DNA from: Lutraria lutraria | Lineage: Eukaryota; Mollusca; Bivalvia; Venerida; Mactridae | Direction: 5' to 3' | Assembly: GCA_964023205.1 (NCBI GenBank) | Contig: OZ026848.1 | Span: 33,095,912 to 33,159,911 of the forward strand | Length of the DNA: 64,000 nt | Shown: piece after piece, positions 3,601-56,500 of the stretch | Position numbering within the stretch: position 1 is the first letter of the stretch | Layout: each line of letters begins with the position of its first letter | The notes under the pieces: model-generated | Seen by the model: only the letters and a program-made list of their open reading frames with translations | The model's database searches: none | What the model was told of the DNA's origin: nothing | Made by a program: the position numbers and the translations under genes

Positions 3601-6600
3601 ATTTTGAAACTTTTAAACATCTTGCCAAACATTTGAACAAGGTGGCTTTGTATGGGGATATCAATAGAGTAAGTTCTTTCAATTGTTTAATTTCTTATGT
3701 TAAAATTATTCTTTCAAGATCAAGTACTTAAATTTTATATGTGTATAACGAAAAGTGAACTCATCCTATTTAAACAGAAAATATATGAACTTTTCATTCT
3801 TTATAATGCCCCTGGCATCTATGATGCGTGAGGCATATAGTGATTGTCTTATCCTTCCATACAAGTTTAAGTGTATATGGTTGTTGCCTATGACCATTCT
3901 CAATGCGCCCATGTCAACCAACCTCACAATGACTTTGACTTTATTTGAACTTAGAATGATTCTGATTGAGTTCAAGTAGATTTTACTGTTTCATCTAGCA
4001 CCAACATGGCTTCCTAGAATACTTGAATATTTACCCAGTTGTTGTCTATGACTATATTCAATCCACCTATAGATCTCTGTTCTATTCTGCTATGTTGATA
4101 TTATAGTACTTGAAGTGAACTTTGGATGTGGTCTGGTGTTAATTGATTGACAATTATTTATTTTCAGATGGAAGCCAAGAATTTAGCTATAGTTTTTGGT
4201 CCAACATTGATCAGAAAAGCAGACGACAGTATGGTTGCCATGTTTACTGATATGTCAGATCACTGTAAGATTATTGAGAGCATAGTTCTCCATGTAAGTA
4301 TTATCACCATACATTTATCTGCCATCTTGTATGTCATCATGATACATTTATCTGCCATCTTGTATGTCATCATGATACATTTATCTGCCATCTTGTATGT
4401 CATCATGATACATTTATCTGCCATCTTGTATGTCATCATGATACATTTATCTGCCATCTTGTATGTCATCATGATACATTTATCTGCCATCTTGTATGTC
4501 ATCATGATACATTTATCTGCCATCTTGTATGTTATCATGATACATTTATCTGCCATCTTGTATGTTATCATATCTGCCATTTTGTATGTTATCATATCTG
4601 CCATCTTGTATGTTATCATATCTGCCATCTTGTATGTCATCATGATACATTTATCTGCCATCTTGTATGTTATCATGATACATTTATCTGCCATCTTGTA
4701 TGTTATCATAATACATTTATCTGCCATCTTGTATGTTATCATATCTGCCATTTTGTATGTTATCATATCTGCCATCTAGTATGTCATCATGATACATTTA
4801 TCTGCCATCTTGTATGTCATCATGATACATTTATCTGCCATCTTGTATGTTATCATGATACATTTATCTGCCATCTTGTATGTTATCATATCTGCCATTT
4901 TGTATGTTATCATATCTGCCATCTTGTATGTCATCATGATACATTTATCTGCCATCTTGTATGTTATCATATCTGCCATCTTGTATGTTATCATAATACA
5001 TTTATCTGCCATCTTGTATGTTATCATATCTGCCATCTTGTATGTCATCATGATACATTTATCTGCCATCTTGTATGTTATCATGATACATTTATCTGCC
5101 ATCTTGTATGTTATCATATCTGCCATTTTGTATGTTATCATATCTGCCATCTTGTATGTTATCATGATACATTTATCTGCCATCTTGTATGTCATCATGA
5201 TACATTTATCTGCCATCTTGTATGTTATCATGATACATTTATCTGCCATCTTGTATGTTATCATGATACATTTATCTGCCATCTTGTATGTTAGCATGAT
5301 ACATTTATCTGCCATCTTGTATGTTATCATAATACATTTATCTGCCATTTTGTATGTTATCATATCTGCCATCTTGTATGTTATCATGATACATTTATCT
5401 AACCTTCCTCTACTTTCAATCTGATGAAGTCAATTTACATGTTTTATGTCACAAACCTTTGTTGTAATATGCTTACTTGGGATTAATCAGGGGTGCTGGA
5501 GGCAAAGTTGACATCAGGGGTGCTGGAGGCAAAGTTGACATCAGGGGTGCTGGAGGCAAAGTTGACATCAGGGGTGCTGGAGGCAAAGTTGACATCAGGG
5601 GTGCTGGAGGCAAAGTTGACATCAGGGGTGCTGGAGGCAAAGTTGACATCAGGGGTGCTGGAGGCAAAGTTGACATCAGGGGTGCTGGAGGCAAAGTTGA
5701 CATCAGGGGTGCTGGAGGCAAAGTTGACATCAGGGGTGCTGGAGGCAAAGTTGACAACAGGGGTGCTGGAGGCAAAGTTGACAACAGGGGTGCTGGAGGC
5801 AAAGTTGACAACAGGGGTGCTGGAGGCAAAGTTGACAACAGGGGTGCTGGAGGCAAAGTTGACAACAGGGGTGCTGGAGGCAAAGTTGACATCAGGGGTG
5901 CTGGAGGCAAAGTTGACATCAGGGGTGCTGGAGGCAAAGTTGACAACAGGGGTGCTGGAGGCAAAGTTGACAACAGGGGTGCTGGAGGCAAAGTTGACAT
6001 CAGGGAGGTGGAAGAGGTGGTGTCCTCCTGCCTCAAATTTTTTTTGTCGAAATATTGGGATGTGGTGATCACCAACCCTTCCACCCCAGCTTCGGCGTCA
6101 CTGTTAATACAGATGTATCATGTGACCTACAGATTGATACTGGTATATTATGTGACTTATTGTTATATTTCAGGTGGATTGGTTCTTTGGTTCCTGGGAA
6201 AATGATAATATTGTACCCACTGATGACGACGCTACAGAGTGTACCTCTATCATATCTGCGTTATCTAGTAACAGGGATGAGACAGGTAGTTATCATACAG
6301 TCAGTTATCTCACTCCAGTTATCATATGGTTAATTATCTCCCTCCAGTTATCATATGGTTAATTATCTCCCTCCAGTTATCATATATATATATAGCTTAT
6401 TATCTCTCTCCAGTTATCATATGGTTAATTATCTCCCTCCAGTTATCATATGGTTAATTATCTATCTCCAGTTATCATATATATATATAGCTTATTATCT
6501 CTCTCCAGTTATCATATGGTTAATTATCTCTCTCCAGTTATTTTCTCAAAATGGGAAAAATTGACATACGGGGTAGATATGAAAATTGTTAAGAGAATTT

Positions 6601-13111: not shown

Positions 13112-14509
13112 TTATCTCCTTCGTCTTAATGGAGGTAAATCATTAGTTTGATAGGTTTGTTGCTCACTAGGTAGTGGTGGCTGAGGAGGCAGGGCTTCAG
13201 GTAAGGGAGGGTTATAGGAGTGTGAATACGAACTTATGGGTGGGACATTAGGTAAAGGAGGGTTATGGGAGTGTGAATACGAACTTAGGGGCAGGGCATT
13301 AGGTAAAGGAGGGTTATGGGAGTGTGAATATGAACTTGGGGGCGGGGCATTAGGTAGAGGTTGGCCATGATATGGGTTATAATAAGGATTTTGGGAGGGT
13401 AGAGGGGATGGAACTGGTTGAGGGGCGGAGTTTGGGGGCGGGGCTTTATAATTCTGTTGATAATATTGAGAACTGTATTGACTTGGAGCTGATGTTGTAG
13501 CTGACTGGCTGGTGGATGAATGTAATGTTTTAGTTACAGGTACAGTATAAGGATCAGGATAAGATGTTACAGCTGTGTTTGATGAAACAACTTTGTTACT
13601 GAAAATTGTCGACTGAATTTTCTGTTTCAATAACTCAGTTTGTTGTCGAATCGAATCCAACAAGTTTTGCTTATTAGCAGCTCCAGGTTTAAGTGTAACT
13701 TGTGGCTCAGTCTGATTAGTTTGTTGTACAGTTGTTGATGACTGAGAGTTGTACGACTGTGAGACACGTGTCTGTGAATGTTGATATTGACTAACACTAG
13801 ATGGCGCTGCTGACAAATCTTGCTGAGATTTTGAACTGGTCTGTCTATGCTGAAACTGAGCAATCTTTGAAGTGGAACTGGTGGATCCAATCTGAGTGAC
13901 TGAAGTTTGTAAATGAGGAGAACCAGTCAGCTGTGCAGTTCTATCTGGTTGTGTTTCTAGTTGACCACCCTGATTATAGCTGGACACTGTGGTGGCTGAA
14001 TGAGTGATACTTGTCTGTTGTTGTAAGATTTGAGGATCATTACCAAACTCATACATGGTACCAGTCCATTGTTCAGATATGTATGGTTGAGTTGTAGGCT
14101 GTTCAGTATATGTGGTTCCACTCCACTGCTGTGAATATACAGGCTGACTCATTGCTGACTGATTGTAAGAGGTACCAGTCCATTGTTGAGAGGAAACAGG
14201 AGGCTGAGGCAAAGACGAGGAAGTTGGAGCCATGCCTATCTGTGCTAAAACACTCTGAATATCCTTCTTTTGTGTATCTGAAATACTAGTACTGACTGGT
14301 TCATGTAAAGGCATGGTTTCACTGTACGAATATTCTGCAGTTGTCACAGACTGATTCACTTGTGGACTACGAAGAAAAGCCGGCACATTACTGGACGTTG
14401 TTGCCCCAAAGCCAGGAATGTTTGCTTCTGGTACCGTCTGCTCCGTCATTGGTGGTAAAATGTTTTGGGGTTCTTCCATCACAGGAGGTACCGTAGTACT
14501 TGCAGAGGA
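13112..14509 (-). CDS. Zinc-finger gene exon 19, Gln/Ser/Pro-rich C-terminus
   Basis: 466 codons including the stop. It is low complexity, with SQQWTGT repeats, Ser/Gln/Thr-rich stretches, then about three 18-residue proline-rich repeats around SYSHSHNPPLPNA, and the ending LPPLRRRR. Acceptor CGTATTTCAG. A disordered, probably protein-interacting tail. Confidence 0.9.
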   Translation of the reverse strand, partial: SSASTTVPPVMEEPQNILPPMTEQTVPEANIPGFGATTSSNVPAFLRSPQVNQSVTTAEYSYSETMPLHEPVSTSISDTQKKDIQSVLAQIGMAPTSSSLPQPPVSSQQWTGTSYNQSAMSQPVYSQQWSGTTYTEQPTTQPYISEQWTGTMYEFGNDPQILQQQTSITHSATTVSSYNQGGQLETQPDRTAQLTGSPHLQTSVTQIGSTSSTSKIAQFQHRQTSSKSQQDLSAAPSSVSQYQHSQTRVSQSYNSQSSTTVQQTNQTEPQVTLKPGAANKQNLLDSIRQQTELLKQKIQSTIFSNKVVSSNTAVTSYPDPYTVPVTKTLHSSTSQSATTSAPSQYSSQYYQQNYKAPPPNSAPQPVPSPLPSQNPYYNPYHGQPLPNAPPPSSYSHSHNPPLPNALPLSSYSHSHNPPLPNVPPISSYSHSYNPPLPEALPPQPPLPSEQQTYQTNDLPPLRRRR

Positions 14510-17500
14510 CTGAAATACGAGCAAATAACACAAAGACTCGTTAGTTATAAAAGTGAATTCATGGACCAGTCCAAACAAGCAGCCTTATCATTGGTCAATT
14601 TTGAAAACAAGCAAATAATCAACCAATGAGAGTCAGACTCTAGATTTTACAAATAAGCAACAATCCTGACGAAATATCCAGGACAATAAGCAACAATCCT
14701 GATGAAATATCCAGAACAATAAGCAACAATCCTGATGAAATATCCAGGACAATAAGCAACAATCCTGATGAAATATCCAGAACAATAAGCAACAATCCTG
14801 ATGAAATATCCAGAACAATAAGCAACAATCCTGACGAAATATCCAGAACAATAAGCAACAATCCTGACAAAATATCCAGGACAATAAGCAACAATCCTGA
14901 TGAAATATTCAGGACAATAAGCAACAATCCTGACGAAATATCCAGGACAATAAGCAACAATTCTGATGAAATATACAGAACAATAAGCAACAATCCTGAT
15001 GAAATATTCAAGACAATAAGCAACAATCCTGATGAAATATTCAGGACAATAAGCAACAATCCTGATGAAATATTCAGGACAATAAGCAACAATCCTGATG
15101 AAATATCCAGGACAATAAGCAACAATCCTGATGAAATATACAGAACAATAAGCAACAATCCTGATGAAATATTCAAGACAATAAGCAACAATCCTGATGA
15201 AATATTCAAGACAATAAGCAACAATCCTGACGAAATATTCAGGACAATAAGCAACAATCCTGATGAAATATTCAGGACAATAAGCAACAATCCTGATGAA
15301 ATATACAGAACAATAAGCAACAATCCTGATGAAATATACAGAACAATAAGCAACAATCCTGATGAAATATACAGAACAATAAGCAACAATCCTGATGAAA
15401 TATTCAAGACAATAAGCAACAATTCTGTTGAAATATACAGAACAATAAGCAACAATCCTGATGAAATATTCAAGACAATAAGCAACAATCCTGATGAAAT
15501 ATTCAGGACAATAAGCAACAATCCTGATGAAATATTCAGGACAATAAGCAACAATCCTGATGAAATATCCAGGACAATAAGCAACAATCCTGATGAAATA
15601 TTCAGGACAATAAGCAACAATACTGATGAAATATTCAGGACAATAAGGACATCATGCAACATAAGTTTTAATATCAATAAGTTATGATAAAATTATTTTA
15701 AGACTTTTGTTTAATTTCTTTTTTTTTTCAACGTGTCTAAAGGTTTTCGAAACAGAACTTTGAATCTAATGCTTAGAATCTGGTCTCTATGAGAGTTCTT
15801 AAACCTTATCTTCCATCTTCATTTTAAAATCATGGAAGATTTAACTTGAAGTTCAATGTTTGAATCTTATTTACCATTTTAGGAGCATTTTGAGTCCCAT
15901 GTTGTATTATTGCCTGTGTCAGTGTGTCAGACATCTGTTTGGCCATTGCGGTGTCAGCTCCCAAAGCTAACATAGTAGATGACTGAAATATACATGGCAT
16001 ACAATATAAGTATCAGGCTCAAAAGTGGCACCGCGGTTTGAGCTAACACCTCCCGTTCAAAATTCCACAGTTTGAGACTCAACTGCAACATATCAAAGGG
16101 AATAAAATAAATGTCTCTGTCCTTGATTTTTTATTGTATTTTAAAGGCAACTGTCAGTGAATACTGTATTTTCATTGGGCTTAATTTTCATTGTTTTTAC
16201 TAAAATGGCTATTTCGTGGGGACATACATTCATGGATTTTGATGTTTGAAAAGAAATGCCTTACCTCTGCATTTAAATTCATAGGAATTTGATTTCGTGG
16301 ATGAGCCGACCCACGAAATCCACGAAATTAAATCCCCAATGAAAATAAATGATTCCGCAGTAAATATCTGAGAAAGTGTGGTATCTAGTCACGATTGAAG
16401 AGTAATATAGGTCAAAAGTGAGCTTAGACACCTTTGCAAATAAGGGTAAAATAAAAGTCCTGTTAAATACTATTGTTTACAGTTGTTCATCCCCTAAAAC
16501 AAATTTATTGTGCAATTAATTTACACTTACCAGTTTGGACATTATATCTTGAACATTCACACCTGGATGTTTTGAGAACTCCTGAAATACAATGATATGT
16601 TTATTATTATTATGATTATAATACTGATATATTAATTGTTTACAATTTCTTATAAGTATTTGTTTTTCTATGGCATATTTTTCCATTACCTCCTTATGTG
16701 TTATGAGAGTCCTCTGTGGCCTCATGGTTATGGTGTGAGAGTTATCACAAGCATCTCACAGCTGAAGAGTTCAAATCCCACCTAGGACCAAATCTCTCAT
16801 ATGAGGAAAGTCCAGCTAGCCGGGTACCAGCGGTTCTACCCAGCTGTAAACCTGGTGTCTTCCTGTTCCATTAAAGCAGGAAAGTCACCAAACAACCTTG
16901 TCTGTTGGTACAATGTTAAATCCCCAGGTAAAAAAATAAGTTCAATAATATGAAATGATGAGAACTACAGGAATGTTAAAACTTAACCACTAAATCCTGG
17001 TATACACCAAAATAGCAGCAAAAACTTAGAGTTCAATTTTACATTAACCAATGAAAAGTCTCTATTTATCTTATTTCTGGACTACTCAAGGAATTAAAAT
17101 AAAACTATGCGTCCATACAGTAACTGTACTTAACATGTGTGAAACATTAAGTCTTACCTCAAATAATGAGTGAAACATTAAGTCTTACCTCAAATAATGA
17201 GTGAAACATTAAGTCTTACCTCAAATAATGTGTGAAACATTAAGTCTTACCTCAAATAATGTGTGAAACATTAAGTCTTACCTCAAATAATGAGTGAAAC
17301 ATTAATTCTTACATCAAATAATGAGTGAAACATTAAGTCTTACCCCAAATAATGAGTGAAACATTAAGTCTTACCTCAAATAATGTGTGAAACATTAAGT
17401 CTTACATCAAATAATGAGTGAAACATTAAGTCTTACTTCAAATAATGTGTGAAACATTAAGTCTTACCTCAAATAATGAGTGAAACATTAATTCTTACAT

Positions 17501-20500
17501 CAAATAATGAGTGAAACATTAAGTCTTACCCCAAATAATGAGTGAAACATTAATTCTTACCTCAAATAATGAGTGAAACATTAAGTCTTACTTCAAATAA
17601 TGTGTGAAACATTATGTCTTACCTCAAATAATGTGTGAAACATTAAGTCTTACTTCAAATAATGAGTGAAACATTAAGTCTTACCTCAAATAATGAGTGA
17701 AACATTAAGTCTTACCTCAAATAATGAGTGAAACATTAAGTCTTACTTCAAATAATGTGTGAAACATTAAGTCTTACCTCAAATAATGTGTGAAACATTA
17801 AGTCTTACTTCAAATAATGAGTGAAACATTAAGTCTTACCTCAAATAATGTGTGAAACATTAAGTCTTACCTCAAATAATGTGTGAAACATTAAGTCTTA
17901 CTTCAAATAATGAGTGAAACATTAAGTCTTACCTCAAATAATGTGTGAAACATTAAGTCTTACCTCAAATAATGTGTGAAACATTAAGTCTTACTTCAAA
18001 TAATGAGTGAAACATTAAGTCTTACCTCAAATAATGTGTGAAACATTAAGTCTTACCTCAAATAATGTGTGAAACATTAAGTCTTACTTCAAATAATGAG
18101 TGAAACATTAAGTCTTACCTCAAATAATGTGTGAAACATTCAGTCTTACCTCAAATAATGTGTGAAACATTAAGTCTTACTTCAAATAATGAGTGAAACA
18201 TTAAGTCTTACCTCAAATAATGAGTGAAACATTAAGTCTTACCTCAAATAATGAGTGAAACATTAAGTCTTACTTCAAATAATGTGTGAAACATTAAGTC
18301 TTACCCCAAATAATGAGTGAAACATTAATTCTTACCCCAAATAATGAGTGAAACATTAAGTCTTACCCCAAATAATGAGTGAAACATTAAGTCTTACTTC
18401 AAATAATGTGTGAAACATTAAGTCTTACCCCAAATAATGAGTGAAACATTAAGTCTTACCTCAAATAATGTGTGAAACATTAAGTCTTACCTCAAATAAT
18501 GTGTGAAACATTAAGTCTTACCTCAAATAATGAGTGAAACATTAAGTCTTACTTCAAATAATGTGTGAAACATTAAGTCTTACCCCAAATAATGAGTGAA
18601 ACATTAATTCTTACCCCAAATAATGAGTGAAACATTAAGTCTTACCTCAAATAATGAGTGAAACATTAAGTCTTACTTCAAATAATGTGTGAAACATTAA
18701 GTCTTACCCCAAATAATGAGTGAAACATTAATTCTTACCCCAAATAATGAGTGAAACATTAAGTCTTACCCCAAATAATGAGTGAAACATTAAGTCTTAC
18801 CCCAAATAATGAGTGAAACATTAAGTCTTACCTCAAATAATGAGTGAAACATTAAGTCTTACCTCAAATAATGAGTGAAACATTAAGTCTTACCTCAAAT
18901 AATGAGTGAAACATTAAGTCTTACCCCAAATAATGAGTGAAACATTAAGTCTTACCTCAAATAATGAGTGAAACATTAAGTCTTACTTCAAATAATGAGT
19001 GAAACATTAAGTCTTACTTCAAATAATGAGTGAAACATTAAGTCTTACCTCAAATAATGAGTGAAACATTAAGTCTTACCCCAAATAATGAGTGAAACAT
19101 TAAGTCTTACCTCAAATAATGAGTGAAACATTAATTCTTACATCAAATAATGAGTGAAACATTAAGTCTTACTTCAAATAATGAGTGAAACATTAAGTCT
19201 TACCTCAAATAATGAGTGAAACATTAAGTCTTACTTCAAATAATGTGTGAAACATTAAGTCTTACCTCAAATAATGAGTGAAACATTAAGTCTTACTTCA
19301 AATAATGTGTGAAACATTAAGTCTTACCTCAAATAATGAGTGAAACATTAAGTCTTACCTCAAATAATGAGTGAAACATTAAGTCTTACCTCAAATAATG
19401 TGTGAAACATTAAGTCTTACTTCAAATAATGTGTGAAACATTAAGTCTTACTTCAAATAATGAGTGAAACATTAAGTCTTACTTCAAATAATGAGTGAAA
19501 CATTAAGTCTTACCTCAAATAATGAGTGAAACATTAAGTCTTACTTCAAATAATGAGTGAAACATTAAGTCTTACCTCAAATAATGAGTGAAACATTAAG
19601 TCTTACTTCAAATAATGAGTGAAACATTAAGTCTTACCTCAAATAATGAGTGAAACATTAAGTCTTACCCCAAATAATGAGTGAAACATTAATTCTTACT
19701 TCAAATAATGAGTGAAACATTAATTCTTACCTCAAATAATGAGTGAAACATTAAGTCTTACCCCAAATAATGAGTGAAACATTAAGTCTTACCTCAAATA
19801 ATGAGTGAAACATTAAGTCTTACTTCAAATAATGAGTGAAACATTAAGTCTTACCTCAAATAATGAGTGAAACATTAAGTCTTACTTCAAATAATGAGTG
19901 AAACATTAAGTCTTACCTCAAATAATGAGTGAAACATTATGTCTTACCTCAAATAATGAGTGAAACATTAATTCTTACTTCAAATAATGAGTGAAACATT
20001 AATTCTTACTTCAAATAATGAGTGAAACATTAAGTCTTACTTCAAATAATGAGTGAAACATTAAGTCTTACCTCAAATAATGAGTGAAACATTATGTCTT
20101 ACCTCAAATAATGAGTGAAACATTAATTCTTACTTCAAATAATGAGTGAAACATTAATTCTTACTTCAAATAATGAGTGAAACATTAAGTCTTACTTCAA
20201 ATAATGAGTGAAACATTAAGTCTTACCTCAAATAATGAATGAAACATTATGTCTTACCTCAAATAATGAGTGAAACATTAAGTCTTACCTCAAATAATGA
20301 GTGAAACATTAAGTCTTACCTCAAATAATGCTTTAACTATCAGCTCTTGTTTTGCAGATGCATCCAAATTATCAACAGATTGAGTTGTTTGTATATTAGA
20401 CACAGTCACATTTGAAGGTCTTACATCTGATTGTGGTCTGAAAATATTTGATTCATGGAACTTACAATACCATCATGTAGAATTCATGTCATGACAAACC

Positions 20501-23500
20501 AATATACAGATTTTTTATGAATTTTTTAGTCACTTTAAATAGATCTGAAAAAAGGGTCACACTAGCTATTTTTACCTTAAAGAAGGGTCCTGTGAGATGA
20601 CAGGGGTGGCAGGTTGTTTTGATATTTCCTCCAGGGCGTGTCTTCTTGCTAACACAGAATCCAGTCTTTGTTTCTCATCCGTACTTAAAGATGGACTTCT
20701 GGAAACATTGTCCCTACATTAGAAGAAAGCATTGTCAATACTATATCACTGAATAAATGGTCATACACATTAAAACAATCAAATTGTTAAAGAGGCATAC
20801 TACAACTGACAAAAAATATGTGAAAGTGTAAAATATATGCCAGATGTATACAGAATAATATATAATGGACAATTGCAAGAAGAACTTGGTTGTTTAGGTA
20901 CTAGCTGCCAAAATCAGCTATAAATAATAAATCGCTTTACTTTTACTGAAACTTACGGGCATGCACACTATAACAAAGACAACTAAAACCTAACATTTCC
21001 CTTAACATTCACATGTTACGGATATATATCTCTTTGTGATTTTTATTGTTAATTGAAGGAAATTTTGGCAGAAACTTTCTTTGTCGGCTTTACAAGCTTC
21101 TAATTTATAATCATTTTGCCTTGATTCTAGATGCTGCATGTTGTAGGGTTTGCCCCTTTAGAGATTTAAATTCCATGATTTCTAATTTTACAGACACATC
21201 ACAAAATGTCAACAGTTCTTTTCAAATAATTAATTATTTCATACTGTGATTTCAATATTGTAATAATTGCATTATAAAATCCACTGGTCGTACATATTAG
21301 ACAAATCAGAGCTTTAAAGATTAAACATTTCTAATTAACAGGGTTTATTCTCAAATAATTTCATGCAGAGTGCTAAAAACAAACGTGTGAGCTTCAGTCA
21401 CAATATTCAGATATTTTGTACCTGTATCAAACTCATACATTATGTATATGTTACAATATTTCATCAACAAGAAATCCTGTTGTAAACATGATGTAAATTT
21501 GCCTATAACTATCCTTAAATGACCAGTTAAACATGTGCACACGACCATCTCCGAATAAAGGCCACTCTGTAAACAAGAGGGCCACATTGGCCCTTTATCG
21601 CTCACCTGAGAACAAAGGCCAATAATCAATGACCAGGTAATATAGTTTCCATCTCGTAAAACTCATTTTTACGTAGATTTTGAGATCAAAACCAACAATG
21701 AAGGTATAATACTGTTAAACAAGCTAAAACGTAGCAAATTTTCTAATCCAAGGGTCCATAACTCTTGAAGTTGTGGTCTGATTCCACCCATAACTTAACT
21801 TGTCCAAAACCATAAAGTCATACACATTCATTGTAAATATGATTAAGATCGGTGAATAAATGAAGGCGCTAGAGTGTAAACAAGCTAAAATATAGCAAAT
21901 TTGCTAAGTCAAGGGCCCATAACTCTTGAAGATGTGGTCCGATTCCGCCCATAATCGAACTTGTTCAAGATCTTTTGGTTATACTCATTTACTGAAAATA
22001 GTATTAGGATCGGTGTATAAATGAAGGCGCTAGTGTGTAAACAAGCTAAAATATAGCAAATTTTCAAAATCAAGGGCCCATAACTCTTGAAGTTTGGGTC
22101 CGATTCCGTCCATAATCGAACTTGTCCAAGATCTTTTGGTTATACACATTTACTGAAAATATTATTAGGATCGGTGAATAAATGTAGGTGCTAGAGTGTA
22201 AACAAGCTAATATATAGCAAATTTTCAAAGTCAAGGGCCCATAACTCTTGAAGTTCTGGTCCGATTCCGCCCATAATCGAACTTATCCAAGATCTTTTGG
22301 TTATACACATTTACTGAAAATATGATTAGGATTGGTGAATAAATGAATGCGCTAGAGTGTAAACAAACTCAAATATAGCAAATTTTCAAAGTCAAGGGCC
22401 CATTACTCTTGAAGTTCTGGTCCGATTCCACCCATAATCGAACTTGTCCAAGATCTTTTGGTTATACACATTTACTGAAAATATGATTAGGATTGGTGAA
22501 TAAATGAATGCGCTAGAGTGTAAACAAACTCAAATATAGCAAATTTTCAAAGTCAAGGGCCCATAACTCTTGAAGCTCTGGTCCGATATTGCCCATAATC
22601 GAACTTGTCCAAGATCTTTTGGTTATACACATTTACTGAAAATATGATCAGGATTGGTGAATAAATGAAGGCGCTAGAGTGTAAACAAGCTAAATATAGC
22701 AAATTTTGTAATTCAAGGGCCCATAACTCTAGAAGTTATTATCAGATTTTGCCCATAATCGAACTTAGCCGAGACATTGCGGCCATATACATTGTGAGCA
22801 AGTTTAATCAAGATTCGTAAAGAGCTGCGGTTGCTAGAGTGTAAACAAACTAATTGTGGCCGGACGCCGGACATTCACCGATCCTAAAAGCTCACCTGAT
22901 GAATCAGATGAGCTAAAAAGGCCATTCTTTTAAAAACTGTAATTGATTATTTAGAACATTATGACCTAAAAATAAAGGCCACCTGTCAATAAAGGCCACA
23001 GTTTGTCTTTTCCAAAGATGGCCTTTGTTCACAAGTTTGACTGCATTTTACTTAATAAAGGAAAATCAGGAAAAAATCATTCCACAAACCGGTCAGCAAA
23101 TCTCTGTAAACGAAGATAATCTATATCTTGGGTTTGCAATTTTCGTCTACGATCCATAATATCATTAATCCTGTCATTCTCCAGCTCATTGAGGTATCGT
23201 CTACGTTCCATGATATCATCTACACGACGTCGCTCAGCATATGGATCCTCTAATCTGTGTTGTTCTAACATTAAATCATCCAGACGTCTTCTCTCATCAA
23301 ACAATCTCCTATAATATAACATAAAATATTTCACCCACATCAGTGATTATATCTCATTCAGTAATTACTGATATTTACAGTGGCTGATTTACGCCATGTC
23401 GTATTTTTGCTTCTTTGCTATGAAATGCAAAAACATGAAGGGACAACAAATTTACAGTTCAACAAAAGAAGTATTATGTGTCGTGTTTTCGCATTACATC

Positions 23501-47500: not shown

Positions 47501-50500
47501 TTTTCTAAAATTGAAAGAATGGATAATTTTTTTATCATTCATAGATATTGATAATTTTGAAATTTAATAACTCTAAGGAACTACAAGCTGATAACTTAGC
47601 AGCGTAACTAAGGCTAGAAAGTATAAGTATTCATCAAAATTTGTTTTAGAAATACATAAATTCTTACTTTTGCAGAAGAGAAGCTGACTTTACAGTATTT
47701 ACAGTATCTGGTATCTTCACCCAGAGCATCAATGTCTAAATCTACTTCTAATTCTTCAGTCTTTACTTCACCTTCTTGTGGCATTTCATGTTGATTAGCA
47801 ACATTTGAACCAGAATTTAGAGCTAATCCAAACTGCCCTTTATCTGCTTCATATTCATAATCAATTACCATGTTAAATTGTCCACGACACTTCGAGCTGT
47901 CAGCTTTATTCTCTGTAATTACTCCAAATTGACCTCTAGACTTTTGACCTTCACTCTGTAAGCCTTGCTTATAGGGACTGACATCATCTTCTTCTTCCAT
48001 TACCAGTATCTCATCTTCTGTTTCACCAGCTATAACAAATTCATTGTCTGTCTCACCAACAATAACCATTTCTTCAGCTGTAACAGAATTTTTATCTTCT
48101 GAGGCTGGCTCTTGTCCGACATTATCTTCTTGTTTGAAATCATCAATTTGAGGACTACTTTTGCTGATTTCTAGCTTGTCATTACTAGATTCCTTATCCA
48201 ATGAAATATGAACTGAAGTGTTACTGCTTTTGCCTACACCATCTGTATCTCCACTTACATTTACATCATCAACTTTACTGACTGGATCTCTACCACTGCT
48301 TGGGTTACACATGACTTGGGTGTTGTTTGATGTTGTCCCATCTTTATCTAAAGTTGTTCCACCACTACCTCTTTCAGAAGTCATTTCATCTCTGCTTTGC
48401 TTTAAAGTCATTCCACCTCTACCTCTGTCTGATGTCATTCCACCTCTTCCTATGTCTAAACTCATTCCACCTCTACTTTGATTCAAAGTCATCCCACCTC
48501 TACCTCTATCTGAAGTCATCCCACCTCTACCTCTATCTGAAGTCATTCCACCTCTACCTCTATCTGAAGTCATCCCACCTCTACCTCTATCTGAAGTCAT
48601 CCCACCTCTACCTCTATCTGAAGTCATTCCACCTCTACCTCTATCTGAAGTCATCCCACCTCTACCTCTATCTGAAGTCATTCCACTTCTACCTCTGTCT
48701 GAAGTCACTCCACCTCTACCTCTTTCTGAGGTCACCCCACCTCTACCTCTATCTGAAGTCATTCCACCTCTACCTCTATCTGAGGTCATTCCACCTCTAC
48801 CTCTATCTGAAGTCATCCCACCTCTACCTCTATCTGAGGTCATTCCACCTCTACCTCTGTCTGATATCATCCCACCTCTACCTCTATCTGATGTCATCCC
48901 ACCTCTACCTCTATCTGAACTCATCCCACCTCTACCTCTATCTGATGTCATCCCACCTCTACCTCTATCTGAAGTCATTCCAACTCTACCTCTATCTGAA
49001 GTAATTCCACCTCTACCTCTGTCTGATGTTATCCTACCTCTACCTCTATCTGAAGTCATTCCACCTCTACCTCTGTCTGAACTCATCCCACCTCTACCTC
49101 TATCTGAAGTCATCCCACCTCTACCTCTATCTGAAGTCATCCCACCTCTACCTCTATCTGAAGTCATCCCACCTCTACCTCTATCTGAAGTCATCCCACC
49201 TCTACCTCTATCTGAAGTTATTCCACCTCTACCTCTATCTGAAGTCATTCCACCTCTACCTCTATCTGAAGTCATTCCACCTCTACCTCTATCTGAAGTA
49301 ATTCCACCTCTACCTCTATCTGTAGTTATTCCACCTCTACCTCTATATGAATTCATCCCCCCTCTGCCTATGTCTGAACTCATGCCCCCTCTACCCCTGT
49401 CTGAAGTCATCCCACCTCTACCTCTGCCTGAGGTCATCCCACCTCTACTTCTGCCTGAAGCAATGCCACCTCTATTTCTGTCTGACATCATTCCCCCTCT
49501 ACCTCCATCTCTAACATAAAAATCATTTCCTTCATTAAATCCACCAGTGTCCATGTATATTCTCCCTGAAATTCAAAGAGATTTAACTTGGAAAAAAAAA
49601 CAAGTAACAAAGTCATCTAACTGTTACTAGACAGGGCCAAAAGATAATAGATGTTCGATCAAGTTAGCTTTTCTTTTTTAAAATCAAAATAGTTTGAACT
49701 GAGGAGTTGATGCTAATGCTGGTATCAAATAATAAATTATTGATAGAAAAATGATGTATGAGCCCTAACTTAAAATTTGGTACATTTGATAAAATGAAGG
49801 CATAAAATCAATATATAAAAACCTTCATGTTGAGTCTGACCACCACCTGTTGTGTCATAATTCTGTGTTGGGTCAACAGGATACTGAGGTGTCCAAGTTT
49901 CTTCCTGAGTTTGTTCCATGTAATACTGAGAATCATCAGGCTGTTGCTCAGTCACCATTTGTTCTGCACCATAATTCAGATCTGTGTATTCATACTCGGC
50001 AGATGCTTGGTAACTTCCATCATCTTGATAAGCTTCATTAGCATTGTCAAAACCTGCAAACATTGTAATTAAAACCATGCAGCATTTAAAACACAACAGG
50101 ATCATGATGGCCCTATAATATCTAACCAGAAAAAATCAATTTTGAACCCTGGGGACAGAATTTGAACAAACTTGTGGTAGAGGTCTACTAGATAGACAAT
50201 GATGCACATTAAATATCACAAGAAAATTTTGAAAATTTTGCTACATATCAGACTATGCAAAACCCAAGGCCATAACATGAAAAAAAAATTGGCATAGGTC
50301 CACTCGACAGTGCTGAACACTAAATTTATAAGCTCTTTGCATTATCGTTTCTGACAAGAAGATTTTCAAATTTTCCTATGTAAGCCTATGTAAATGAAGT
50401 TATCCCCAGGGCAGAGTCAATTTTGATCCCAGGACCATAATTTGAATGAACTTGGTAGAGGTCCAAGTTAGCAGGTCATTGTGCTCAGTGTTAATTACCA

Positions 50501-54900: not shown

Positions 54901-56500
54901 CTTAGGAAAATTTTGAAGGTGTTGTTATAGAGAGGTTGTTGCTCTACAGAGGGCTGCTCTGGAGAGGTTGTACTGTACTTACCTAGATTTACAGTATTAT
55001 TTGATATGTTTACAGTATTATTTGATATGTTTTCTGTATTATTTGATATGTTTACTGTATTTACATAGATTTACAGTATTATTTGATAGATTTACAGTAT
55101 TATTTGCTATGTTTTCTGTATTATTTGATATGTTTACAGTATTATTTGATATGTTTACTGTATTTACATAGATTTACAGTATTATTTGATAGATTTACAG
55201 TATTATTTGATATGTTTACAGTATTATTTGATAGATTTACAGTATTATTTGCTATGTTTTCTGTATTATTTGATATGTTTACAGTATTATTTGATATGTT
55301 TACAGTATTATTTGATATGTTTACTGTATTTACATAGATTTACAGTATTATTTGATAGATTTACAGTATTATTTGCTATGTTTTCTGTATTATTTGATAT
55401 GTTTACAGTATTATTTGATATGTTTACAGTATTATTTGATATGTTTACTGTATTTACATAGATTTACTGTATTATTTGATATGTTTACTGTATTTACATA
55501 GATTTACAGTATTATTTGATATGTTTACAGTATTATTTGATATGGTTACTGTATTATTTGATATGTTTACAGTATTATTTGATATGTTTACAGTATTATT
55601 TGATATGTTTACTGTATTTACCTAGATTTACAGTATTATTTGATATGTTTACTGTATTATTTGATATGTTTACTGTATTATTTGATATGTTTACAGTATT
55701 ATTTGATATGTTTACAGTATTATTTGATATGTTTACTGTATTTACCTAGATTTACAGTATTATTTGATATGTTTACTGTATTATTTGATATGTTTACAGC
55801 ATTATTTGATATGTTTTCTGTATTATTTGATATGTTTACAGTATTATTTGATATGTTTACTGTATTTTACAGAACCTCTTGAAGATGACACTGGTATTGA
55901 ATTTGATTTTCTTGTTGAGGGAGAATTTCTTAGAGTATCTCTAGATTCACATCTTGAACAAAAGGATATCTCAACAGTAAGTTATCTCAACTATAAGTAA
56001 TTAGTTATCTTAATAGTAAGTTATCTTTAAGTTAACTATGAGTTATCACAGCTATACGTTATTTTACTTATTAGTTATCTCAACAGTTGGTTATCTCAGC
56101 ATTAATTTATCTCAACTAGAAGTTAACCTTCTCAGTTCCTCTGTTTTATGATATACTTTATAATTTATATTATTATTATTATTCTCACATTGTTATTATT
56201 ATTATTGTATTGTTCATACATGAATCATTATCTAAACTGACTTGCCTATCTACCTTTCTTAAAACAATGTAATTACTAAAGCCTATTTTTGCCACTTGTC
56301 ACTGTCATATGAAAATTGTATTGTGTTATTTGTATGTTCACATGGGCCTATGGCTTACTGAAATTTGTAATAAACTATCTATCTATATTACAGGAAACAG
56401 TTGTAGAGATAGAGTACGTAGAGAGACATCCAGCACCGACTCCTGAAGATTCTCTCAATCATGATGACTGGGTTAGCTGTGTTCATGCTTCTAATAACTG
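51896..56500 (+). CDS. WDR12: WDR12, ribosome biogenesis protein, first four coding exons (3'-partial)
   Basis: Model: 51896-51948, 54031-54116, 55873-55976, 56394-56500; phases 2, 1, 0, 2 agree. It encodes the NLE-type ubiquitin-like N-terminal domain: [20 protein letters not shown], then [36 protein letters not shown] and DDWVSCVHA, which matches the arrangement of animal WDR12/yeast Ytm1. Family knowledge: WDR12 with PES1 and BOP1 forms the PeBoW complex in 60S ribosomal subunit maturation, and the N-terminal domain binds the AAA protein MDN1. The WD40 propeller exons should follow an intron that exceeds 7.5 kb, beyond the window. The next exon must begin with G to complete the Trp codon split at 56500. 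Confidence 0.93.
52000..52660. other. WDR12 intron 1, no recognised feature
   Basis: AT-rich sequence, no repeat or exon I can support. Confidence 0.4.
52666..53940. mobile_element. 1.27-kb inverted-repeat element in WDR12 intron 1
   Basis: Left ACAGGGCTCACGCTGGCCAG; right TAGCCAGGGTGAGCCAGCCC, then TGTG. CATTTGGC and TTTGGCGC blocks occur near both ends in inverted sense. No transposase seen. Confidence 0.7.
54031..54116 (+). CDS. WDR12: WDR12 exon 2
   Basis: [15 protein letters not shown] onwards to SLINGIIS, after acceptor TAATTTCTAG; donor TCAG/GTACGT. Confidence 0.9.
54800..54974. mobile_element. 175-bp MITE
   Basis: Left TAGTACAACCTCTGTAGAGC and right GCTCTGGAGAGGTTGTACT are inverted repeats; internal inverted copies of TTGCTCTACAGAGG make it strongly self-complementary. 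Confidence 0.8.
54985..55872 (+). repeat. 21-bp minisatellite ending in the WDR12 exon 3 acceptor
   Basis: About 42 units: GATATGTTTACAGTATTATT plus one base, with variants TTTCTG, TTTACTG and the 20-bp TTTACTGTATTTACATAGAT. Most copies include TTTACAG or a one-base variant of it. The last unit runs into GTATTTTACAG, the actual acceptor. Larger blocks of six to ten units are themselves duplicated. Confidence 0.95.
55873..55976 (+). CDS. WDR12: WDR12 exon 3
   Basis: [19 protein letters not shown] and on to EQKDIST. The acceptor GTATTTTACAG abuts the 21-bp array; donor ACA/GTAAGT. Confidence 0.92.
56168..56206 (+). repeat. ATT microsatellite
   Basis: Interrupted runs of ATT within WDR12 intron 3. 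Confidence 0.8.
56394..56500 (+). CDS. WDR12: WDR12 exon 4
   Basis: [20 protein letters not shown] then [12 protein letters not shown] and two bases of a Trp codon. It ends the N-terminal domain and starts the first WD blade. Confidence 0.92.

Follow-up and report, generated by a model that had tools for sequence, protein, structure and literature searches.

What becomes of an intron that opens with about a hundred copies of its own 5' splice site? The question is raised by a locus of the bivalve Lutraria lutraria, which lies in 64,000 nucleotides (nt) of the forward strand of contig OZ026848.1 (assembly GCA_964023205.1, positions 33,095,912-33,159,911; hereafter the window). On the minus strand of the window, a coding exon of a zinc-finger gene runs into a 31-bp minisatellite whose unit spans the exon/intron boundary (Table 1; a slash in a sequence marks the splice junction). 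This is probably a minisatellite over a 5' splice site that was born by slippage and is tolerated, a "mirage" of the kind known from amphioxus, and we infer that the spliceosome would mainly use the first donor.

The original prediction, made from the sequence of the window, described about 103 copies of a 31-bp unit that includes a real exon end and is continuous with the junction at 20320/20319, and this description was borne out. Tandem Repeats Finder (TRF) gave 103.1 copies with a period of 31, 95% matches and 0% indels. The repeated 31 bp, CATTATTTGAGGTAAGACTTAATGTTTCACT, run downwards on the minus strand from 20330 to about 17135, and all 103 units keep register when the array is cut each 31 bp from 20330. 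The unit is composed of 11 exon and 20 intron bases; unit 1, which is the real junction itself, opens with the last 11 bases of the exon, CATTATTTGAG, followed by GTAAGACTT. There are 15 unit types, interleaved along the array, and no unit has an indel; 24 of the 31 columns are invariant and 7 are variable. No run of identical unit types longer than 9 is repeated, and a higher-order structure was rejected (identity by lag at most 0.23, against a 95% limit of 0.26 in shuffles). The proposed origin at the junction, by duplication or slippage, also agrees with our results, as unit 1 is the junction. Past the last unit, the far flank restarts with the same three bases, CAT; thus, a 3-bp repeat may have served in the first duplication, which is a weak trace of slippage.

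The boundary at which the array starts fits the gene model. The exon end reads ...AAAGCATTATTTGAG/GTAAGACTT on the minus strand, and the exon is in phase with the modelled exon before it and with the three after it (Table 1). A protein search found orthologues in Mercenaria (LOC123532981) and Mya (LOC128244855), and a longer query added two Dreissena records and one record of 2,058 residues. All five proteins are gap-free across the junction KALFE/EFSKHP (...KALFE/EFSKHPGVNVQDIM...) and have no array-derived residues; in the Mercenaria and Mya alignment, the closest gap is 7 residues upstream of the junction. Judged by the fitting splice phases and the gap-free alignments, the donor GAG/GTAAGA at 20320/20319 is genuine, and by the five orthologue proteins the true boundary is part of a conserved coding exon. 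Precomputed Pfam domains PF12171 and PF12874, which we take to be zinc-finger families, are present on all five orthologue records, and the name zinc-finger gene is therefore fair; a Pfam search with nine pieces of the minus-strand host gene gave no match above Pfam's cut-off and three matches far below it. The exon had been called exon 16 of the zinc-finger gene. Its coding nature and the zinc-finger domains on the orthologues stand, but the number is not established, and in our model it is about the 15th.

Other genes in this genome have similar arrays. We searched the genome for three copies of AGGTAAG spaced 10-40 nt, with the reversed pattern as the control and with triplets as the unit of counting. 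Fourteen arrays were read, the first among the matches listed; they lie on C1 and in the first part of C3, were not drawn at random, and come from a pattern that favours units resembling donors. Among these listed matches, five of the 14 arrays begin at an exon donor or 7 nt after it. The repeat starts inside the exon in genes of a lipoxygenase (solved-structure match, 1.1e-6), a ZIP transporter (Pfam, 9.3e-5, which is below Pfam's own cut-off) and a glutamyl-tRNA synthetase (GluRS; match, 3.1e-12), and in an open frame of no known family; in the gene of a two-pore potassium channel (K2P; match, 7e-8), the TRF start is 7 nt past the donor. Eight of the 14 listed arrays have no convincing exon at their start, C1:4887750 and C3:2877719 having short, doubtful open frames, and for the array at C1:2341305, which is counted among the nine non-donor arrays, the stretch read stops short of the array start. 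The 38-bp repeat of the GluRS gene gives matches over about 9.5 kb from the exon donor (C3:2972592-2982075; parts were read), and many of its units read CAG/GTGAGA. If this array is continuous, the 103-unit array is not the largest. The 8 arrays on C1, scaled up from its 49.2 Mb to the whole genome, give a rough, order-of-magnitude estimate of a hundred donor-motif arrays. Separately, a 20-bp repeat, many of whose units contain TGGTAAG, extends over about 2.5 kb on the minus strand at C1:45677682-45680188.

Junction-spanning minisatellites, though little studied, are already known from amphioxus and from the human CBS and IFI6 genes, and what is new here is the recurrence in one bivalve genome; a full-text literature search found no bivalve report of an intronic minisatellite at a splice site. 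According to the available text of two reports, amphioxus mirages are tandem duplications across exon/intron boundaries in Adh3, BflGb6, BflGb9, PGBD5 and TnC, with AG/GT in many units, with lengths that differ between haplotypes, and with splicing that RT-PCR (reverse transcription-polymerase chain reaction) suggests is undisturbed (PMC3087553, PMC3902484). Likewise, the unit of the Lutraria array spans the exon/intron boundary, the true junction lies inside the array, and AG/GT is found in many, not all, units (51 of 103). In its sequence features, the array is a mirage. As far as the same text goes, mirages affect both 5' and 3' boundaries, as do arrays in the present window, but they have 2-7 copies where numbered and units of 10-160 bp, whereas here 103 copies of 31 bp are found, in a bivalve, and the arrangement recurs in the genome; furthermore, normal splicing is suggested by RT-PCR for the mirages and is a prediction for the bivalve array.

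The CBS gene offers a second parallel, a 31-bp variable number of tandem repeats over a 5' splice site, c.1444_1467+7(16_21), as given in the available part of PMC2630376. The length of the unit and its place over the splice site are shared with the Lutraria array. By the variant name, the CBS repeat has 16-21 units with 24 exon and 7 intron bases, in contrast to 103 units with 11 exonic bases here, and the gene and lineage are unrelated. As for IFI6 (6-16), its minisatellite was reportedly found by Turri et al. in 1995 to give multiple splice donors. In this human gene, as in the Lutraria gene, repeats at an exon end offer several donors, and the available text on IFI6 states that real mRNAs are spliced from two of the downstream units (PMC4526556). 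In contrast to that case, downstream use in the Lutraria gene would truncate the protein. When joined to the next exon, all 102 downstream donors give an identical end, ...KALFEVRLNVSLII followed by a stop, owing to a TGA in unit 2, at its exonic end. Different donors thus do not give different proteins as in an IFI6-like ladder, and the ladder of isoforms that had been suggested for this array was rejected at the protein level. By the usual rule, mRNA from misused copies would be open to nonsense-mediated decay.

Are the copies kept as good donors? The array had been described as offering about 100 equal donors, and scoring of all units with a 5' splice-site model had been proposed as a check. 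We carried out this scoring with generic matrices and a generic U1 5' end. Positions +1 to +6 are GTAAGA in all 103 units, whereas positions -3 to -1 are GAG in 51, GAA in 32, GGG in 16 and GAT in 4. The 51 GAG units are identical to the true site, GAG/GTAAGA, and score 10.5 as it does; the remaining 52 score lower (GGG 9.2, GAA 6.4, GAT 6.2), and no copy scores higher. Duplexes with the U1 5' end, computed for each unit, are predicted to be strong in 67 units (GAG -9.6 and GGG -9.2 kcal/mol) and weak in the other 36 (GAA -4.5 and GAT -4.3 kcal/mol). The donors are therefore numerous, but not equal. Elsewhere on the minus strand, 11 of 3,506 GT dinucleotides reach the score of GAG/GTAAGA, and donors scoring at least 6 occur at 32 per kb in the array versus 2.5 per kb outside arrays on the same strand. 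Of all columns of the unit, donor position -1 varies most and position -2 ranks third, and the share of GAG is flat from the exon outward (13/26, 12/26, 12/26 and 14/25). Constraint on the hexamer GTAAGA was rejected as well: since 24 of the 31 columns are invariant, the probability that six given columns all escape the 7 variable ones is 0.18, and the invariance of the hexamer is no sign of selection. Thus, with variable positions -1 and -2, a flat share of GAG and 52 weaker units, there is no sign that the copies are kept as good donors.

The history that we favour would be as follows. A 31-bp segment across the 5' splice site would have been tandemly duplicated, by slippage or unequal exchange, and would have grown to 103 copies within the intron. 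The spliceosome would take the first donor for most transcripts, because only this donor pairs with the upstream acceptor across the real exon (exon definition). Mistaken use of the copies would lead to one truncated product, which is expected to be degraded. With the first donor mainly used and the product of misuse degraded, the array would be carried along, growing and shrinking, as a nearly neutral filler of the intron. Several points weigh against this history. The acceptor of the host exon scores 2.5, the lowest of ten in the gene model, so that exon definition may be weak at this exon. A simple gene finder omitted the host exon and took 16862-16760 instead. With 51 units having the nine donor bases of the true site and 67 having about equal U1 pairing, leakage to downstream donors could be large, and the use of downstream repeat units as donors in IFI6, as far as the available text of PMC4526556 describes it, points the same way. 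As for the exon 16862-16760, it was rejected on the orthologue alignment alone; a tRNA-derived repeat was suspected there and is unconfirmed, as ARAGORN found no tRNA in 16400-17100.

An alternative is dual-specific or recursive splicing, in which AG/GTAAGA units would each act as an acceptor as well as a donor and the intron would be removed stepwise, by 31 nt or a multiple of it at a time. As every step would restore an identical junction, the array would be self-erasing in the mRNA and would be tolerated for this reason. The core AG/GTAAG is present in 51 of the 103 units, but AG/GT is missing from the other 52. The 50 AG/GT copies past the first score 3.8-6.2 as acceptors, within the 2.5-9.6 of the acceptors of the host gene and above the host exon's own; the motif scores 6.3-8.6 in the ZIP array and 4.7-6.6 in the GluRS pieces read, but only 2.8-4.2 in the lipoxygenase array, -1.0 to 2.7 in the K2P array and -1.8 to -0.5 in the unnamed open frame. 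Moreover, the acceptor half here is GAG, with G at position -3, and GAG is a rare 3' splice site. In the genome search, triples of AGGTAAG (1,909 versus 1,083 for the reversed control) and AGGTGAG (1,496 versus 747) are in excess, and those of TGGTAAG are not (1,798 versus 2,224), although a few large arrays dominate these counts of triplets. Exons ending in AG are far commoner than exons ending in TG, which explains the excess of AG over TG equally well. In the available text of PMC10809524, human introns spliced at dual-specific sites are 8.4-fold enriched in tandem repeats. The dual-specific splice sites of UBC (PMC10809524) and ratchet points (PMC8605326), as far as the available text describes them, resemble the present array in that an AG/GT core recurs tandemly, spaced by multiples of the unit length; they differ in that AG/GT is found here in only 51 of 103 units, with GAG as the acceptor half. 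On balance, we consider recursive splicing of this intron unlikely. Unlikely, too, is the broader proposal that 5' splice sites in this bivalve lineage repeatedly seed minisatellites, of which those keeping AG/GTRAG persist as splicing erases them. If it were true, introns could gain tens to hundreds of units with the mRNA unchanged, which would be a route of intron lengthening, and such arrays would form natural ladders in which up to 50 or more identical sites compete for splicing and serve recursively.

The array might also be a regulator specific to this gene, which sequesters U1 small nuclear ribonucleoprotein or slows the intron and thereby sets the ratio of full-length mRNA to truncated mRNA prone to nonsense-mediated decay. 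The 67 units with strong predicted U1 duplexes would suit such a function, and the early stop shared by every downstream donor would be a clean off-switch. The variation of donor positions -1 and -2 and the lack of a gradient along the array speak against it; furthermore, a like arrangement is found at functionally unrelated genes, and this recurrence counts against any special role in the zinc-finger gene; we regard this explanation as improbable. An assembly artefact or a wrong copy number is more improbable still: minisatellite lengths vary and the copy number was read from one assembly, but the 15 interleaved unit types and the lack of any indel speak against it, and a 467-bp query from the array start recovered, in the whole assembly (728.5 Mb), the array locus and otherwise only one weak match of 67% on C12. 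Finally, U1 telescripting, by which the array would shield the transcript from premature cleavage and polyadenylation across what had been called a long intron, was rejected as scarcely credible in spite of the many U1 sites in 3.2 kb, since the intron, at 3,738 nt, is not long, is short without its array, and none of the polyadenylation-signal hexamers AATAAA, ATTAAA, AGTAAA, TATAAA and CATAAA occurs in the array (one AATAAA lies in the other 553 nt of the intron), so that there is little to protect.

Tandem repeats with a TRF score of at least 150 make up 23.6% of the window, and other arrays near splice sites were found there (Table 1). Among the 16 non-coding arrays of the window, four, namely the 31-bp array and three on the plus strand, have an end no more than 12 bp from a splice site of one of 30 modelled exons; random placement gives a mean of 0.37 and reaches 4 in 0.045% of 20,000 trials, the 12-bp limit having been set post hoc, and with a limit of 5 bp there is 1 array versus 0.17 expected (P 0.15). 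Exons flanking the three arrays on the plus strand are supported by tblastn or Pfam. In the 33-bp and the 21-bp array, the copies are similar to the true site but score below it. Copies in the 33-bp array carry CTT/GTATGT and score 4.0-4.1 versus 8.7 for the true donor, and those of the 21-bp array, by the NLE-domain gene that is presumably WDR12, score at most 7.0 versus 8.2 for the true acceptor. At six fresh exon blocks of the same ARHGAP21/23-like gene, upstream of the window, 1 of 15 arrays starts 11 bp after a donor (P 0.04), and no array lies within 1.8 kb of the remaining five. The array past this donor, at C17:33065349, has 40-bp units; its unit is junction-like but reads AAG/GTTAGA.

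Table 1. Positions in the window of the junction-spanning array, its host gene and other arrays near splice sites
Feature	Position	Strand	Basis or remark
31-bp minisatellite, 103 units	17135..20330	minus	TRF and unit table; commonest sense-strand unit CATTATTTGAG/GTAAGACTTAATGTTTCACT
True 5' splice site GAG/GTAAGA	20320/20319	minus	Phase-coherent model and orthologue proteins
Coding exon (exon 16 of the original prediction), 118 nt	20320..20437	minus	Phase-coherent model and 5 orthologue proteins
Array-bearing intron, 3,738 nt	16582..20319	minus	3,185 nt array, 553 nt other; AATAAA at 16605
Upstream exon, ending with AG, two bases of a codon completed by the host exon	20576..20713	minus	Gene model and tblastn
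Downstream exon EFSKHPGVNVQDIMSKL, donor CTG/GTAAGT	16531..16581	minus	Gene model and orthologue alignments
Next exon, SSTMLALGADTAMAKQMSDTLTQAIIQHGTQNAPKM	15875..15982	minus	tblastn
Last coding exon	13112..14509	minus	Gene model and tblastn
33-bp array, TRF start 7 nt past donor CAT/GTAAGT of ARHGAP21/23-like exon 4168-4293	4301..5400	plus	
29-bp array, TRF start 2 nt past donor CAG/GTAGTT of next ARHGAP21/23-like exon, 6174-6285	6288..6541	plus	
21-bp array, TTTACAG-type units, ending 6 nt before acceptor of NLE-domain exon at 55873	54988..55866	plus	

Further features of the host gene were noted. The donor of the downstream exon is the top-scoring one among nine scored in the gene. The intron preceding the last exon has a 33-bp array of about 30 copies (14652-15647, minus strand), whose sense strand contains 30 acceptor-like sites scoring above 4, mostly TTTCATCAG/G; 29 of the 30 score 7.2-9.6 versus 6.8 for the true acceptor 142 nt downstream. 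Within another exon of the gene, an in-frame 27-bp array of about 43 copies (48345-49510, minus strand) codes for GRGGMTSDR-like repeats, and a related protein record has similar RGG-type repeats, likewise with a period of 9 residues.

It has long been asked what guides the spliceosome when identical donors compete. This genome is a natural test set for the question, with identical, regularly spaced donors by the dozen in several of its genes, and RNA sequencing alone would show the weight of exon definition, position and order. Our results add a bivalve, with several of its genes, to amphioxus and the few human genes in which the mirage phenomenon was described. Such repeats are probably tolerated rather than used, and introns may regularly grow through splice-junction minisatellites.

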